Part shown: one piece after another, positions 20,251 to 26,279 of the stretch | Layout: every line of letters starts with the position of its first letter | Numbering within the stretch: position 1 is the stretch's first letter | Origin: a virus | Virus record (IMG/VR): IMGVR_UViG_3300027852_000153 | Coordinates: 1-26,599 of that record | Strand: one strand, 5' to 3' | DNA length: 26,599 bases | Position numbers and translations under genes: made by a program | The notes under the pieces: generated by a model | Seen by the model: only the letters and a program-made list of their open reading frames with translations | What the model was told of the DNA's origin: nothing | Databases searched by the model: none

Positions 20251-20730
20251 ATGGCCGGATCAGTCAATAAAGTAATCCTAATCGGCAACCTAGGAGCAGA
20301 CCCCGAGGTGCGCAGCTTCCAGAACGGCGGCAAGGTGTGCAATCTGCGCATTGCCACTTCGGAAAATTGGAAAGACCGCAGCACCGGCGAACGCCGTGAA
20401 AAAACCGAATGGCACTCGGTTGCTATCTTTAGCGAAGGTCTGGTTCGGGTCGCCGAGCAATATCTGCGCAAAGGGTCCAAAGTTTACATTGAAGGCGCTT
20501 TGCAAACCCGCAAGTGGCAGGACCAATCAGGCAATGACCGCTACAGCACAGAGGTAGTTCTGCAGGGCTTCGGGTCTACGCTAACCATGCTAGACGGCCC
20601 AAGCGGTAACGGCGGCGGTCAAAGCAACCAGGGCGGCAACCAAGACGGTCAGAGCTATGGCGGTGGCGGTGGGTCATACGGTGGGGGAGGTGCGTCCCAA
20701 AATATCGATGACGATGAGGTGCCTTTCTGA
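20251..20730 (+). CDS. ssb: Single-stranded DNA-binding protein
   Basis: Clear SSB. OB-fold N-terminus [20 protein letters not shown], then [25 protein letters not shown]-like segment [12 protein letters not shown] at about residues 70-82, a glycine-rich linker (about 112-150) and the acidic tail DDDEVPF that binds partner proteins. At 159 aa it is close to the bacterial length, unlike many shorter phage SSBs. It protects single-stranded DNA in phage replication and probably works with the Rad52-like and NinB-like proteins of the leftward operon. Confidence 0.95.
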
Positions 20731-22898: not shown

Positions 22899-22906
22899 AA
22901 AGGAGA

Positions 22907-22937
22907 GCCCGCCAGCAGGGTTTAATCTGCGGCGGGC
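22907..22937. promoter_or_regulatory. Strong bulged hairpin after the VRR-NUC gene
   Basis: GCCCGCC (22907-22913) and GCAG (22915-22918) pair with CTGC (22927-22930) and GGCGGGC (22931-22937): eleven pairs with a single bulged A. No U-run follows on the + strand. It may end or stabilise the early transcript. Confidence 0.5.
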
Positions 22938-22973
22938 CAGTAGAGAGACATACCAGGAGAGGAGAGTCCCCTA

Positions 22974-22987
22974 TGTAATAGCGTAAC
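22974..22987 (+). promoter_or_regulatory. Third, weaker copy of the extended -10 motif
   Basis: TGTAATAGCGTAAC matches TGTTATAACGTAAC (4208) at 12 of 14 positions. It stands just before the structured intergenic block that begins near 23001, so it might drive an RNA. The -10 (AATAGC) is poor, so activity is doubtful. Confidence 0.3.
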
Positions 22988-23000
22988 GGCGGGGGTGGGT

Positions 23001-23260
23001 CAAGCGCGACAAGATGCAAAAGGATTCCCGGCCATTCTGCTAGGGTCGCCGCGCTTGGGAGGATGCAACATGGATTCGAACCAATACACTCCTACGGTCC
23101 TTGGCCCGCGCCATCACGGAGTCGAACCGTGCAGTGACCTTGATTACATCCACCAAAGGGCGGGTAGTTTGAGCGCGGGCAGGGCGTTAATCCTGCGTCC
23201 GTACACCAAGGTCAGTGTTCCTTACCCCTCTCGACGGGCGTCTGGTACGGTCTGTGACGA
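23001..23260. ncRNA. Candidate structured RNA with T-loop-like hairpins (strand uncertain)
   Basis: Part of the 521-nt stretch 22899-23419, in which I find no convincing gene. Complementary segments seen by eye: 23001-23008 with 23050-23057 (8 pairs), 23071-23073 with 23081-23083, 23104-23111 with 23173-23180 (8), 23115-23119 with 23127-23131 (5), 23135-23142 with 23207-23214 (8), 23199-23204 with 23245-23250 (6). Two hairpins read on the minus strand have 7-nt loops TTCGAAT and TTCGACT, exactly like tRNA T-loops, but no full tRNA fold can be built. The helices 23104/23173 and 23135/23207 cross, implying a pseudoknot or alternative states. Open frames here (such as 22995-23342) have no ribosome site. 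Confidence 0.4.
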
Positions 23261-23370
23261 CTCAATGCGTGTCTACTTTCCACGCCGCCGCTCTCATCAG
23301 CACCCTACACCAACACAGTCACCAGAGCAAGTGGGGCAATGAAGAAGGCCCGCCGGAATTAACCAACGAG

Positions 23371-23404
23371 CCTTGCAATTCATCCTTTACCTTGCAACGC
23401 ATCC
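23371..23404 (+). repeat. Direct repeat upstream of HNH gene
   Basis: CCTTGCAATTCATCC at 23371-23385 and CCTTGCAACGCATCC at 23390-23404 agree at 13 of 15 positions, 19 bp apart, just before the gene at 23420. They could be a protein-binding site. A weak promoter (TTTACC, 17 nt, TAGGGT) overlaps the second copy. Confidence 0.55.
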
Positions 23405-23419
23405 CGTGTAGGGTGAGGT

Positions 23420-24159: not shown

Positions 24160-24678
24160 ATGCCAAACGAATACCCCGAACTTGAAAACTGCCCCTTCTG
24201 TGGTGGCGACGATATTGCACCAGAGGTTAACCATGAACGTGACCACGCGCAGTCTAGGTGTGGTGGATGCGGTGCCTGTGGCCCGATGGCCGACCAGATT
24301 GGGAACTACAAGCGGCCCGCAGAGGCATGGAACACCCGCACAGCACCACAGGTAAAGCCGCTGGTGTGGGGCGATATGGAGTGGGATCAAGACGAATACG
24401 GTTGCCAAGAGTGGGGTGAATTTACGGGAGGTTTGATTTCTCTGAGCGAATGCCACACCTATGCAATTTACCAGCATTCAGATTGTGAATACATGTGGAC
24501 GTCTGGAACGCTGCACAACATGCGATATTCGACATACCGGCCACTTAATGACCCCGACTGGGTTCCCGTAATACCTTGGTACTCCACGCCAGATGGGGCT
24601 AGAGAAGGCGCGCAAGCAGCCCTTGCAGCGCATGTCGCAAGCCTCCTAGCAGCGCATGTCGCAAGCCTCCTAGCCTAA
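24160..24678 (+). CDS. Lar-like zinc-ribbon protein, 172 aa
   Basis: N-terminal 55 residues match the restriction alleviation protein (Lar) family: ENCPFCGGDDIAPEV, RCGGCGACGPMA and RPAEAWNTR, with two CxxC zinc pairs. Lar reduces attack by host type I restriction enzymes. The rest (residues 60-150: VWGDMEWDQDEYGCQEWGEF, SDCEYMWTSGTLHNMRYSTY) is a separate domain of unknown role found in phage proteins. The end carries a duplicated 8-residue unit, AAHVASLL, in tandem. A rho-independent terminator follows 9 nt after the stop. Confidence 0.7.
   Translation: MPNEYPELENCPFCGGDDIAPEVNHERDHAQSRCGGCGACGPMADQIGNYKRPAEAWNTRTAPQVKPLVWGDMEWDQDEYGCQEWGEFTGGLISLSECHTYAIYQHSDCEYMWTSGTLHNMRYSTYRPLNDPDWVPVIPWYSTPDGAREGAQAALAAHVASLLAAHVASLLA
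24625..24672 (+). repeat. 24-bp perfect tandem repeat at the 3' end of the Lar-like gene
   Basis: The unit starting GCAGCGCATGTCGCAAGCCT is present twice without gap (24625-24648, 24649-24672), adding eight codons. It probably arose by slippage and could vary in number between isolates. Confidence 0.95.
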
Positions 24679-24687
24679 CACATAGAG

Positions 24688-24714
24688 CCGACCTGTTAAC
24701 GCGGGTCGGTTTTT
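24688..24714 (+). terminator. Rho-independent terminator
   Basis: CCGACC (24688-24693) pairs with GGTCGG (24704-24709) around a 10-nt loop, followed by TTTTT (24710-24714). It ends the rightward transcript of the Lar-like gene and separates it from the oppositely oriented tRNA genes. Confidence 0.9.
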
Positions 24715-24785: not shown

Positions 24786-24859
24786 TGGATGCCCGTCTAG
24801 GGGTCGAACCTAGATTTGCTCAGTCAAAGTGAGCCGTCCTGCCATTAGACGAACGGGCA
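24786..24859 (-). tRNA. tRNA-Gln (UUG)
   Basis: Read on the minus strand: acceptor TGCCCGT/ACGGGCA (7 pairs), D-arm GTC/GAC, anticodon stem GCTCA/TGAGC with loop CTTTGAC (anticodon TTG), T-arm CTAGG/CCTAG with loop TTCGACC, discriminator T and encoded CCA. Reads CAA, rare in GC-rich hosts. Confidence 0.9.
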
Positions 24860-24860
24860 A

Positions 24861-24936
24861 TGGAACCGTGTGTGGGATTTGAACCCACTCCTGCCGAGTC
24901 ACAGTCGGCGAATGCTACCCTTACACCAAGCACGGC
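24861..24936 (-). tRNA. tRNA-His (GUG)
   Basis: Anticodon stem GCCGA/TCGGC with loop CTGTGAC gives anticodon GTG. T-arm GTGGG/CCCAC with loop TTCAAAT, encoded CCA at 24861-24863. The acceptor is imperfect (a G-U at the end and a mismatch at 7/66), and the usual extra 5' G opposite C73 is not apparent, so charging may be weak. One base separates it from the next tRNA. Confidence 0.8.
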
Positions 24937-24937
24937 A

Positions 24938-25027
24938 TGGTGGGTTTCCGAGGACTTGAACCTCTCGTTACCCAGCCCCTACGTTTTACAACAACGGTGT
25001 TACAGACCGCCAAGAGGATAGAAACCC
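24938..25027 (-). tRNA. Aberrant tRNA, anticodon ambiguous (GUA Tyr or UGU Thr)
   Basis: Acceptor GGGTTTC/GAAACCC is perfect, followed by A and encoded CCA; T-loop TTCAAGT closed by four good pairs. The body is 87 nt long, as in long-variable-arm tRNAs. Two anticodon hairpins are possible: GCGGT-CTGTAAC-ACCGT (anticodon GTA) or CCGTT-GTTGTAA-AACGT (anticodon TGT, four good pairs). Neither leaves an ordinary D-arm. It may be a degraded, intron-like or unusual tRNA. Confidence 0.55.
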
Positions 25028-25104
25028 TGGTACGCGCCCTCGGAGTCGAACCGAGATTCACGAAATTTTAAGTTTCGCTGCGTTGCCTGTTAGCATAGGC
25101 GCGC
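25028..25104 (-). tRNA. tRNA-Leu (UAA), short variable loop
   Basis: Acceptor GCGCGCC/GGCGCGT (one G-U), D-arm TGC/GCA, anticodon stem CGAAA/TTTCG with loop CTTAAAA (anticodon TAA), variable loop only TGAAT, T-arm CTCGG/CCGAG with loop TTCGACT, A73 and encoded CCA. Bacterial leucine tRNAs normally have a long variable arm, missing here. Abuts the previous tRNA without a spacer. Confidence 0.85.
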
Positions 25105-25105
25105 A

Positions 25106-25183
25106 TGGTACGGGCGGGGGGACTCGAACCCCCAAAACCCAGCTTCTAAGGCTAGTACGCTATTCCAATTACATCGCGCCCGC
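25106..25183 (-). tRNA. tRNA-Leu (UAG), short variable loop
   Basis: Acceptor GCGGGCG/CGCCCGT (one G-U), anticodon stem CTAGC/GCTGG with loop CTTAGAA (anticodon TAG), short variable loop, T-arm GGGGG/CCCCC with loop TTCGAGT, A73 and encoded CCA. Reads CUA, a codon seen often in the phage genes here. Again no long variable arm. Confidence 0.85.
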
Positions 25184-25190
25184 ACATCTT

Positions 25191-25267
25191 TGGTCTGTGT
25201 TGCAGGGTTCGAACCTGCGACCTTCGCATTCCAAGTGCGACACTCTGCCAGACTGAGCTAAACACAG
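25191..25267 (-). tRNA. tRNA-Pro (UGG)
   Basis: Acceptor CTGTGTT/AACACAG (7 pairs), D-arm GCTC/GAGT with AGTCTGGCA loop, anticodon stem TCGCA/TGCGA with loop CTTGGAA (anticodon TGG), T-arm GCAGG/CCTGC with loop TTCGAAC, A73 and encoded CCA. First gene of the leftward tRNA transcript; TATAAAAT on the minus strand (25271-25278) just before it may be a -10 box. Confidence 0.92.
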
Positions 25268-25545
25268 ATTATTTTATATGGGTGGTTTGAAACTCGCTCT
25301 GCTTTCGCTGCACCCACTGGGCGCAATTAAGCACCCGACTAGATCGGTAGTGGATACTGTTGGAGGTGATGAGCTAAAGTTTTCATAGCGCCCTTATACC
25401 CGCATCCGAATAAAGTGGCAACCCATCGGATAATTCATAATGTGGGCCTATGTTTATGAATAACTCGCAAGTTGCCTTGGCTTGGGAAGAATGGTACATG
25501 TAAAAGCGGCGGCGCGATCCGGTAAGATCAAACGCCGCCTTGGAC

Positions 25546-25575
25546 GACACGAAACTTTGGAGGTTTCAACGTGTC
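25546..25575 (+). promoter_or_regulatory. Hairpin masking a ribosome site and GTG start
   Basis: GACACG (25546-25551) pairs with CGTGTC (25570-25575), and AAAC (25552-25555) with GTTT (25563-25566). The loop holds the GGAG of a Shine-Dalgarno (TTGGAGG, 25557-25563), and the GTG start at 25571 lies in the stem. This looks like a translational switch, if the frame is used. Confidence 0.35.
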
Positions 25576-25690
25576 ATCGACTGAATGTATAGGCCAAAAA
25601 GCCGAACCATTCAACCCAGAACCTCCCGGAATAACGCAGTGGCCTTCATACTTGGTAGCGCTGCGTCTGACACTACCAGGGCGTTGCTAG
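25571..25690 (+). CDS. Possible 39-aa peptide from a GTG start
   Basis: GGAGG lies 7 nt before GTG at 25571; the frame runs to TAG at 25688-25690. Product: MSSTECIGQKAEPFNPEPPG, then ITQWPSYLVALRLTLPGRC. Proline-rich, no family. It overlaps several helices of the candidate RNA, so it could be chance, a leader peptide, or the coding part of a dual-function RNA. Confidence 0.3.
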   Translation: MSSTECIGQKAEPFNPEPPGITQWPSYLVALRLTLPGRC

Positions 25691-25964
25691 TTAAGCCTCG
25701 CAAAGCGCCCGCACCAATCATTCACACTTCGGTGTGTGGCCCAACGGTGTAAGCGAGGGACTGCCCCAATAGGCGGTTAGAAAATGGGTCCGGGGTGTGT
25801 GTTGGTGAATGCACCCTGTCAATATCGTGGCGGCTCAAGGCTCTAAGGTTTGATGCAAGATCACGTGAGACAGTTGATACTGGTCGAGTTTCATTCTCAG
25901 GCCCTAAGTATCATTCTGTCTTTCGGACGACTAAGGATAAGGTTTGATATAGGAGATACAGCAG

Positions 25965-26279
25965 ATGACACAGCAACTGATAGAGATGATCACCAAAGAG
26001 AAACTGATGCTGGCGTTTAGAGAGGTTTTCGATGCTGGCAGGGAGCAGGGCGAATGCTCCGCTCTTCAAATGTACGGGACACCGCTTGACGACGTTGCCT
26101 TTGTGGACTTCTTTGCAGATTGGAATACCGACGATGCCAAGAACGCATTGTCTATTCTCAGCACTGTAACAGAAGAACTAGACGCAGCTAAAGCGGCTAT
26201 GTGTGGTGATGAACAGAAGGAAGAAGATCGACGCCGAGAAAATTACAGATTCGAGCAATCATTTTTCAACCAGGGTTAA
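25965..26279 (+). CDS. Hypothetical protein, 104 aa
   Basis: ATG after a good ribosome site (TAGGAG at 25950-25955). Mostly helical and acidic: IEMITKEKLMLAFREVFDAG, ADWNTDDAKNALSILSTVTE, EELDAAKAAMCGDEQKEEDR. It contains FREVFDAGREQGE, a pattern seen in small phage proteins of unknown role. First gene after the structured 700-nt region; the TAAGGTTTGAT repeat lies in its leader. Confidence 0.62.
   Translation: MTQQLIEMITKEKLMLAFREVFDAGREQGECSALQMYGTPLDDVAFVDFFADWNTDDAKNALSILSTVTEELDAAKAAMCGDEQKEEDRRRENYRFEQSFFNQG

Follow-up and report, generated by a model that had tools for sequence, protein, structure and literature searches.

The analysed stretch of DNA (hereafter the window; 26,599 nt) is a 26.6-kb IMG/VR virus contig with siphovirus genes, among them those for a head-tail adaptor, tape measure, tail fibre, spike and amidase. 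Recombination genes on the minus strand, including NinB and a single-strand annealing protein, are followed by small plus-strand genes, a minus-strand tRNA array, a gene-free block (25268–25964) and plus-strand genes that continue to the contig end. The features discussed below are collected in Table 1. The tRNA array is transcribed leftward, away from the structured RNA described here. The intrinsic terminator upstream of the array was recognized from the sequence and its local fold and is absent from the listing of the consensus terminator scan. Within the array we also noted a degenerate tRNA-like gene (24938–25028, minus strand) missed by ARAGORN. It has an acceptor stem (GGGUUUC/GAAACCC), a T arm, an anticodon arm (GCGGU-CUGUAAC-ACCGU) with GUA (Tyr) as the presumptive anticodon, a long variable region and almost no D arm; tRNA-Sec is the Rfam model that fits it best, at 19 bits and thus under the cut-off. 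Another gene-poor gap of ~520 nt is present at 22899–23419, with a minus-strand fold z-score of -2.8 against 60 shuffles. A search for phage relatives of this gap found none.

Table 1. Features of the locus and elements of the structured RNA (window coordinates unless stated otherwise)
Feature	Position	Strand	Basis or remark
Lar-like restriction alleviation protein	24160–24678	+	PF14354, 31.7 bits (cut-off 28.6); phrog_599; last plus-strand gene ahead of the tRNA array
Intrinsic terminator, GCCGACCUG-UUAA-CGCGGGUCGGU followed by a U run	24687–24714	+	Sequence; local fold -18.3 kcal/mol
tRNA array: Gln(TTG), His(GTG), degenerate Tyr(GTA)-like, Leu(TAA), Leu(TAG), Pro(TGG)	24786–25267	-	ARAGORN, Rfam
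Divergent spacer/promoter region	25268–25498		No alignment with homologs; fold z = -0.09
Putative weak promoter-like element, TTGCCT-N17-TACATG-T	25472–25501	+	Read from sequence; under the consensus-scan threshold
Structured RNA, about 455 nt	25502–25957	+	Homology and covariation
5' GC-rich hairpin, 25508–25514/25533–25539	25508–25539	+	Invariant in all three members
Helix 25543–25551/25570–25578	25543–25578	+	Five pairs with compensatory change
Helix 25582–25587/25608–25613 with inner GGC/GCC stem	25582–25613	+	Five compensatory pairs in all
Hairpin 25634–25644/25654–25666	25634–25666	+	A-U to G-C in phiGT1
H-type pseudoknot: stem 25679–25685/25704–25710; loop CCUCGC (25696–25701) with GCGAGG (25753–25758)	25679–25758	+	Pair comparison
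Tetraloop hairpin: CACAC-UUCG-GUGUG (window), CGCCA-GCAA-UGGCG (phiGT1)	25723–25736	+	UUCG to GNRA swap
Helix 25738–25743/25785–25790 enclosing hairpin 25759–25765/25772–25778	25738–25790	+	Three compensatory pairs in outer helix
Variable hairpin with conserved GUUGGUGAA-like loop	25791–25818	+	Pair comparison, three sequences
Hairpin carrying first copy of repeated motif AAGGUUUGA	25826–25865	+	Pair comparison
Long 3' hairpin, 13 + 7 pairs, 7-nt loop	25867–25922	+	Inner stem compensatory
Second AGGUUUGA copy, then conserved Shine-Dalgarno AUAGGAGAU	25940–25957	+	Predicted unpaired in all three members
First gene of downstream operon, 104 aa	25965–26279	+	No known family; unrelated to relatives' genes in this place
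RNA in phiGT1 (phiGT1 coordinates)	34445–34903	+	

Among 50,697 phage records, a sensitive nucleotide search returned a single match, Sulfitobacter phage phiGT1 (81.5% identity over 455 nt), where the copy sits in a gap without annotated feature. This cultured carrier, whose host is Sulfitobacter sp. HGT1, is a lytic podovirus of tidal flat Sulfitobacter (PMC7427195). The words noncoding, intergenic and promoter are absent from the paper on its structural genes (PMC10386132). Pattern scans of IMG/VR revealed one further copy, in the siphovirus contig 3300019755_000019 (86.4% over 462 nt). The RNA of the window thus has copies with 75–86% identity in two further marine phages, to which the window is otherwise largely unrelated. 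Outside the RNA, the DNA of the window and phiGT1 aligns only at SSB (72.7%; 20251–20730 in the window), and their proteins match at SSB and in a few weak cases. No DNA alignment outside the RNA exists between the window and contig 3300019755_000019, which share two proteins with 44–52% amino acid identity. The RNA is better conserved than nearly all of the surrounding DNA and, therefore, has most likely moved horizontally. It appears to represent a cassette that travels between unrelated phages, the hosts of which probably belong to the Roseobacter group.

When twelve sources (three Rhodobacterales-host phages and one marine siphophage among them) were searched with a covariance model built on the central domain, only the three known members were recovered. 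The remaining IMG/VR viral contigs matching words of 17 to 21 bases or gapped patterns taken from five segments of the RNA were attributed to chance (profile search E > 0.03), with only contig 3300019755_000019 (locus L006) being homologous; nine pattern matches in genome contigs, none of them supported, were likewise ascribed to chance. Plasmids gave no match to the window block, and those matching the L006 query did so over its tRNA genes. Weak phage matches (E 0.05–7) in Rhizobium P10VF, Thomasclavelia TR-TP1 and Fusobacterium JD-Fnp7 were also taken as chance. The former two lie in intergenic gaps of about 90–100 nt, and the JD-Fnp7 record carries no annotation.

The initial annotation had described the block as gene-free and hairpin-rich, and had proposed that it might encode a giant phage RNA of almost 700 nt beside a tRNA array. 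The absence of genes is confirmed: the ORFs listed within the block do not exceed 56 aa, indels between each pair of the three homologs shift the reading frame several times, stops are present in all six frames across the homologs, and substitutions show no codon-position bias. A small gene on either strand of the RNA region is thereby ruled out. A large structured RNA is also strongly supported, but its size is about 455 nt, that is, about two thirds of the block. Hairpin richness likewise applies to 25499–25957 and not to 25268–25498; the latter resembles shuffled sequence in its folding and has the appearance of an ordinary spacer between divergent promoters. Adjacency to tRNA genes holds for the window and for contig 3300019755_000019 but is not general, as phiGT1 has no tRNA.

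The whole block has a fold z-score of about -2.5 on both strands (20 shuffles). For region 25499–25957 alone the single-sequence value is -2.56, and the two homologs gave -2.20 and -4.20. RNAalifold applied to the three sequences yielded -158.8 kcal/mol for the plus strand and -133.1 kcal/mol for the minus strand. Against column shuffles preserving the conservation pattern, these alignment folds correspond to z-scores of -10.8 and -6.5, respectively. A fold more stable than that of shuffled sequence is found for 25499–25957 and for the alignment but not for 25268–25498. Covariation among relatives is evident as well. In a hand-set structure with one pseudoknot, 24 of the 116 pairs are compensatory (both sides changed, still paired). 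Shuffles led to an expectation of 9.0 ± 2.3 such pairs and never reached 24 (0 of 500), while the slid-partner controls contained 2–4. Although 96.3% of the cells are paired in this structure, the slid control flatters the percentage because these very sequences had also helped to define the structure; stronger evidence comes from the compensatory pairs. Wherever a pair varies on a single side, it is retained through a G-U wobble of the plus strand, and the strand was therefore set as plus. With no more than three known members, the support for some helices consists of one or two changes. At the hairpin 25791–25818, MAFFT presumably placed phiGT1 one base off, and the pair counts were left uncorrected. 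Overall, the comparison of the three sequences makes it almost certain that 25502–25957 encodes a conserved, structured plus-strand RNA.

It might be argued that the conserved entity is instead a DNA element (a replication origin, packaging or recombination site) with inverted repeats that mimic RNA structure. The region is indeed intergenic, parts of both strands fold, and phiGT1 has a gene for a protein with a DnaA domain. However, the much better fit of the plus strand (see the z-scores above), the G-U wobbles that make sense only in plus-strand RNA, and a UUCG to GCAA replacement typical of RNA all argue against this explanation, and short direct-repeat arrays were not seen by eye. We consider it highly improbable.

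The comparison of pairs defines a series of helices along the RNA (Table 1). At its center is a pseudoknot, both stems of which are maintained, each across one G-C/G-U change; it qualifies as such because GCGAGG sits within another helix. The tetraloop of hairpin 25723–25736 is UUCG in two of the three members and GCAA in phiGT1. Some of the helices suggested initially were retained in this architecture. Hairpin 25868–25921 is correct, and its inner GAG/CUC covaries. From the nest proposed at 25696–25758, the outer pairing CCUCGC/GCGAGG (25696–25701/25753–25758) and the UUCG hairpin (25723–25736) persist, while the intermediate nesting is wrong. The helix stack at 25399–25446 falls in the unconserved part and finds no support, and the 8-pair helix at 25651–25680 competes with the better supported 25634–25644/25654–25666 and 25679–25685/25704–25710. 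Two copies of the motif AAGGUUUGA are present in the RNA (window positions 25846 and 25940; positions 1843 and 1937 of locus L037 of contig 3300019755_000019), the second copy being directly ahead of the Shine-Dalgarno sequence. Owing to an 8-nt insertion in the IMG/VR homolog (L006), its second copy is similar to the first along ~20 nt. Both copies are complementary to the segment UUAAGCCU (25691–25698), an arrangement that might serve as a switch.

At the 3' end, conservation extends to AUAGGAGAU, 7 nt ahead of the ATG at 25965, and then stops. This Shine-Dalgarno sequence is conserved just ahead of the start codon in all three members. The genes that follow are different. The first products, of 104 aa in the window and 102 aa in contig 3300019755_000019, have no convincing family and no meaningful relationship in a direct BLASTP comparison (E = 2.5), and the one in phiGT1 is an unrelated 172-aa HNH protein. 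The phiGT1 gene for the latter, phiGT1_56, probably begins 93 nt before the annotated start position (L002:6468–6986, phiGT1 34912–35430), directly after the conserved Shine-Dalgarno sequence. An HNH homing intron was considered and rejected, as no intron model matched and an HNH gene directly downstream is found in phiGT1 only. In the window and in contig 3300019755_000019 the RNA heads a same-strand operon; in phiGT1 the upstream genes are also on the plus strand and the RNA lies within a plus-strand run. The small terminase gene is located downstream on the same strand in both relatives, at a distance of 5.1 kb in phiGT1 and 7.2 kb in contig 3300019755_000019, with small same-strand genes in between.

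The position of the RNA might suggest a metabolite- or protein-sensing leader of the single gene that follows, either a classical riboswitch or an autoregulatory element. It ends at a Shine-Dalgarno sequence, to which a CUCC segment is complementary, and both copies of the repeated AGGUUUGA (25846, 25940) are complementary to 25691–25698; together these could form a switch. Yet neither the constant function of the downstream gene nor the Shine-Dalgarno-hiding expression platform that characterize riboswitch-type leaders was found: each of the three phages has a different, unrelated gene in first position downstream, and concealment by CUCC is unfavourable, with forced pairing costing 2.6–11.5 kcal/mol and the Shine-Dalgarno sequence predicted open in every member. 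We therefore regard a sensor of this kind as distinctly unlikely.

To compare the RNA with known classes, we searched all three members against Rfam 15 with permissive filters (E <= 1–2), and nothing credible was found over the RNA. In the window only tRNA models reached their gathering scores. None of the three members matched the Rfam covariance models of GOLLD (modelled on its conserved 3' region), ROOL, HEARO/omega RNA, tmRNA, or group I or II introns, and ARAGORN found no tmRNA in the window or in either relative. The RNA is therefore neither GOLLD nor ROOL as modelled in Rfam 15. Working in a manner like GOLLD or ROOL is nevertheless compatible with the lack of Rfam membership. Both of those RNAs are without known function, carry pseudoknots and are often found near tRNA islands, GOLLD being a large, ornate, phage-borne RNA and ROOL a large RNA of phages and prophages (PMC12286853). 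In contrast to GOLLD, which measures at least 800 nt, the RNA described here spans about 455 nt, runs into a ribosome-binding site and has an unrelated sequence and helix order; it differs from ROOL in preceding unrelated genes and in occurring in phiGT1 without tRNA. A further hallmark of GOLLD is its assembly into a homo-oligomeric nanocage. It also resembles the manA and wcaG motifs, structured leader RNAs of marine phages that occur in T4-like cyanophages ahead of metabolic or exopolysaccharide genes (PMC2864571), but those are other families without an Rfam match here.

The main rival of a cis-acting leader is an independent RNA acting in trans, comparable to GOLLD, ROOL or OLE. Such an RNA would have a promoter of its own and would leave the transcript through RNase cleavage or Rho-dependent release, the next gene merely using the adjacent ribosome-binding site. 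Its size, pseudoknot and tetraloop swap suggest action through its own fold, and both its indifference to the following gene and the neighbouring tRNA genes in two of the three members fit as well. What speaks against it is that conservation runs unbroken up to the Shine-Dalgarno sequence and halts at the gene start. Moreover, a terminator-like 3' end was looked for and not found: in none of the three phages did the consensus scan report such a site between the RNA and the start codon. This explanation has a real, if minority, chance of being correct.

The reading that we favour, with the chances for and against it evenly balanced, is that the RNA forms the promoter-proximal 5' leader of a phage transcript running rightward and works in cis on polymerase or ribosome. 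Transcription from the upstream plus-strand genes should end at the strong terminator at 24687–24714, and the RNA would therefore need its own promoter. The candidate element has equivalents at the same place in the homologs (TTGACG-N17-TACAAG-T and TTGCTT-N18-TAGGAA-T), also under the scan threshold. Transcription would start at about 25502–25508, the RNA would fold with its central pseudoknot, and it would end at an open ribosome-binding site serving whichever gene comes next. As the RNA persists in front of differing genes, its target is probably the general machinery and not a single gene. Conservation above that of nearly all nearby DNA across a podovirus and siphoviruses likewise implies that it interacts with a constant component of the host. 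The initial annotation had recognized that the block might prove to be only an untranslated leader. This may partly apply, since the RNA enters the ribosome-binding site of the next gene without a terminator, yet the leader is conserved and elaborately folded.

The put RNA of phage HK022 and the Bacillus EAR element are promoter-proximal and cis-acting, head long operons and are indifferent to the genes that follow; they offer a model of how the RNA described here could work. Acting like put, it would bind the transcribing host RNA polymerase, giving terminator read-through along the operon to the terminase and structural genes. Processive antitermination is our leading guess for the cis-acting leader and makes up roughly half of that reading; alternatively, such a leader might control the translation or stability of the transcript. 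The weakness of the promoter element and the location of the phiGT1 copy inside a run of plus-strand genes, not at its start, count against a leader or antiterminator. The put RNAs have about 70 nt, and the range for put and EAR is about 70–120 nt, compared with about 455 nt here, and no sequence relation to them was seen; an antiterminator of this length would be unusual. The boldest form of the proposal is a new class of large self-folding RNA, a mobile 5' leader cassette that would reprogram the RNA polymerase of the host (or its ribosomes) across the entire operon that follows, as an RNA-only antiterminator several times any known size. We view this as rather unlikely.

Few large structured phage RNAs of unknown role are known, GOLLD and ROOL being examples. 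With its defined strand, borders and fold, together with a cultured carrier in phiGT1, the RNA described here constitutes a directly testable new class of phage RNA. Two further observations concern contig 3300019755_000019 (loci L006 and L037). In L006, a second tRNA-like gene, probably Tyr(GTA), lies beside tRNA-Trp (L006:1262–1343, minus strand); it was missed by ARAGORN and scores 27.2 bits against the Rfam cut-off of 29. The contig also has two genes for capsid proteins of the HK97 type: besides the usual one, which follows the portal gene (L037:13499–14800), a short one lies in the early region, close to the RNA (L037:2520–3332).
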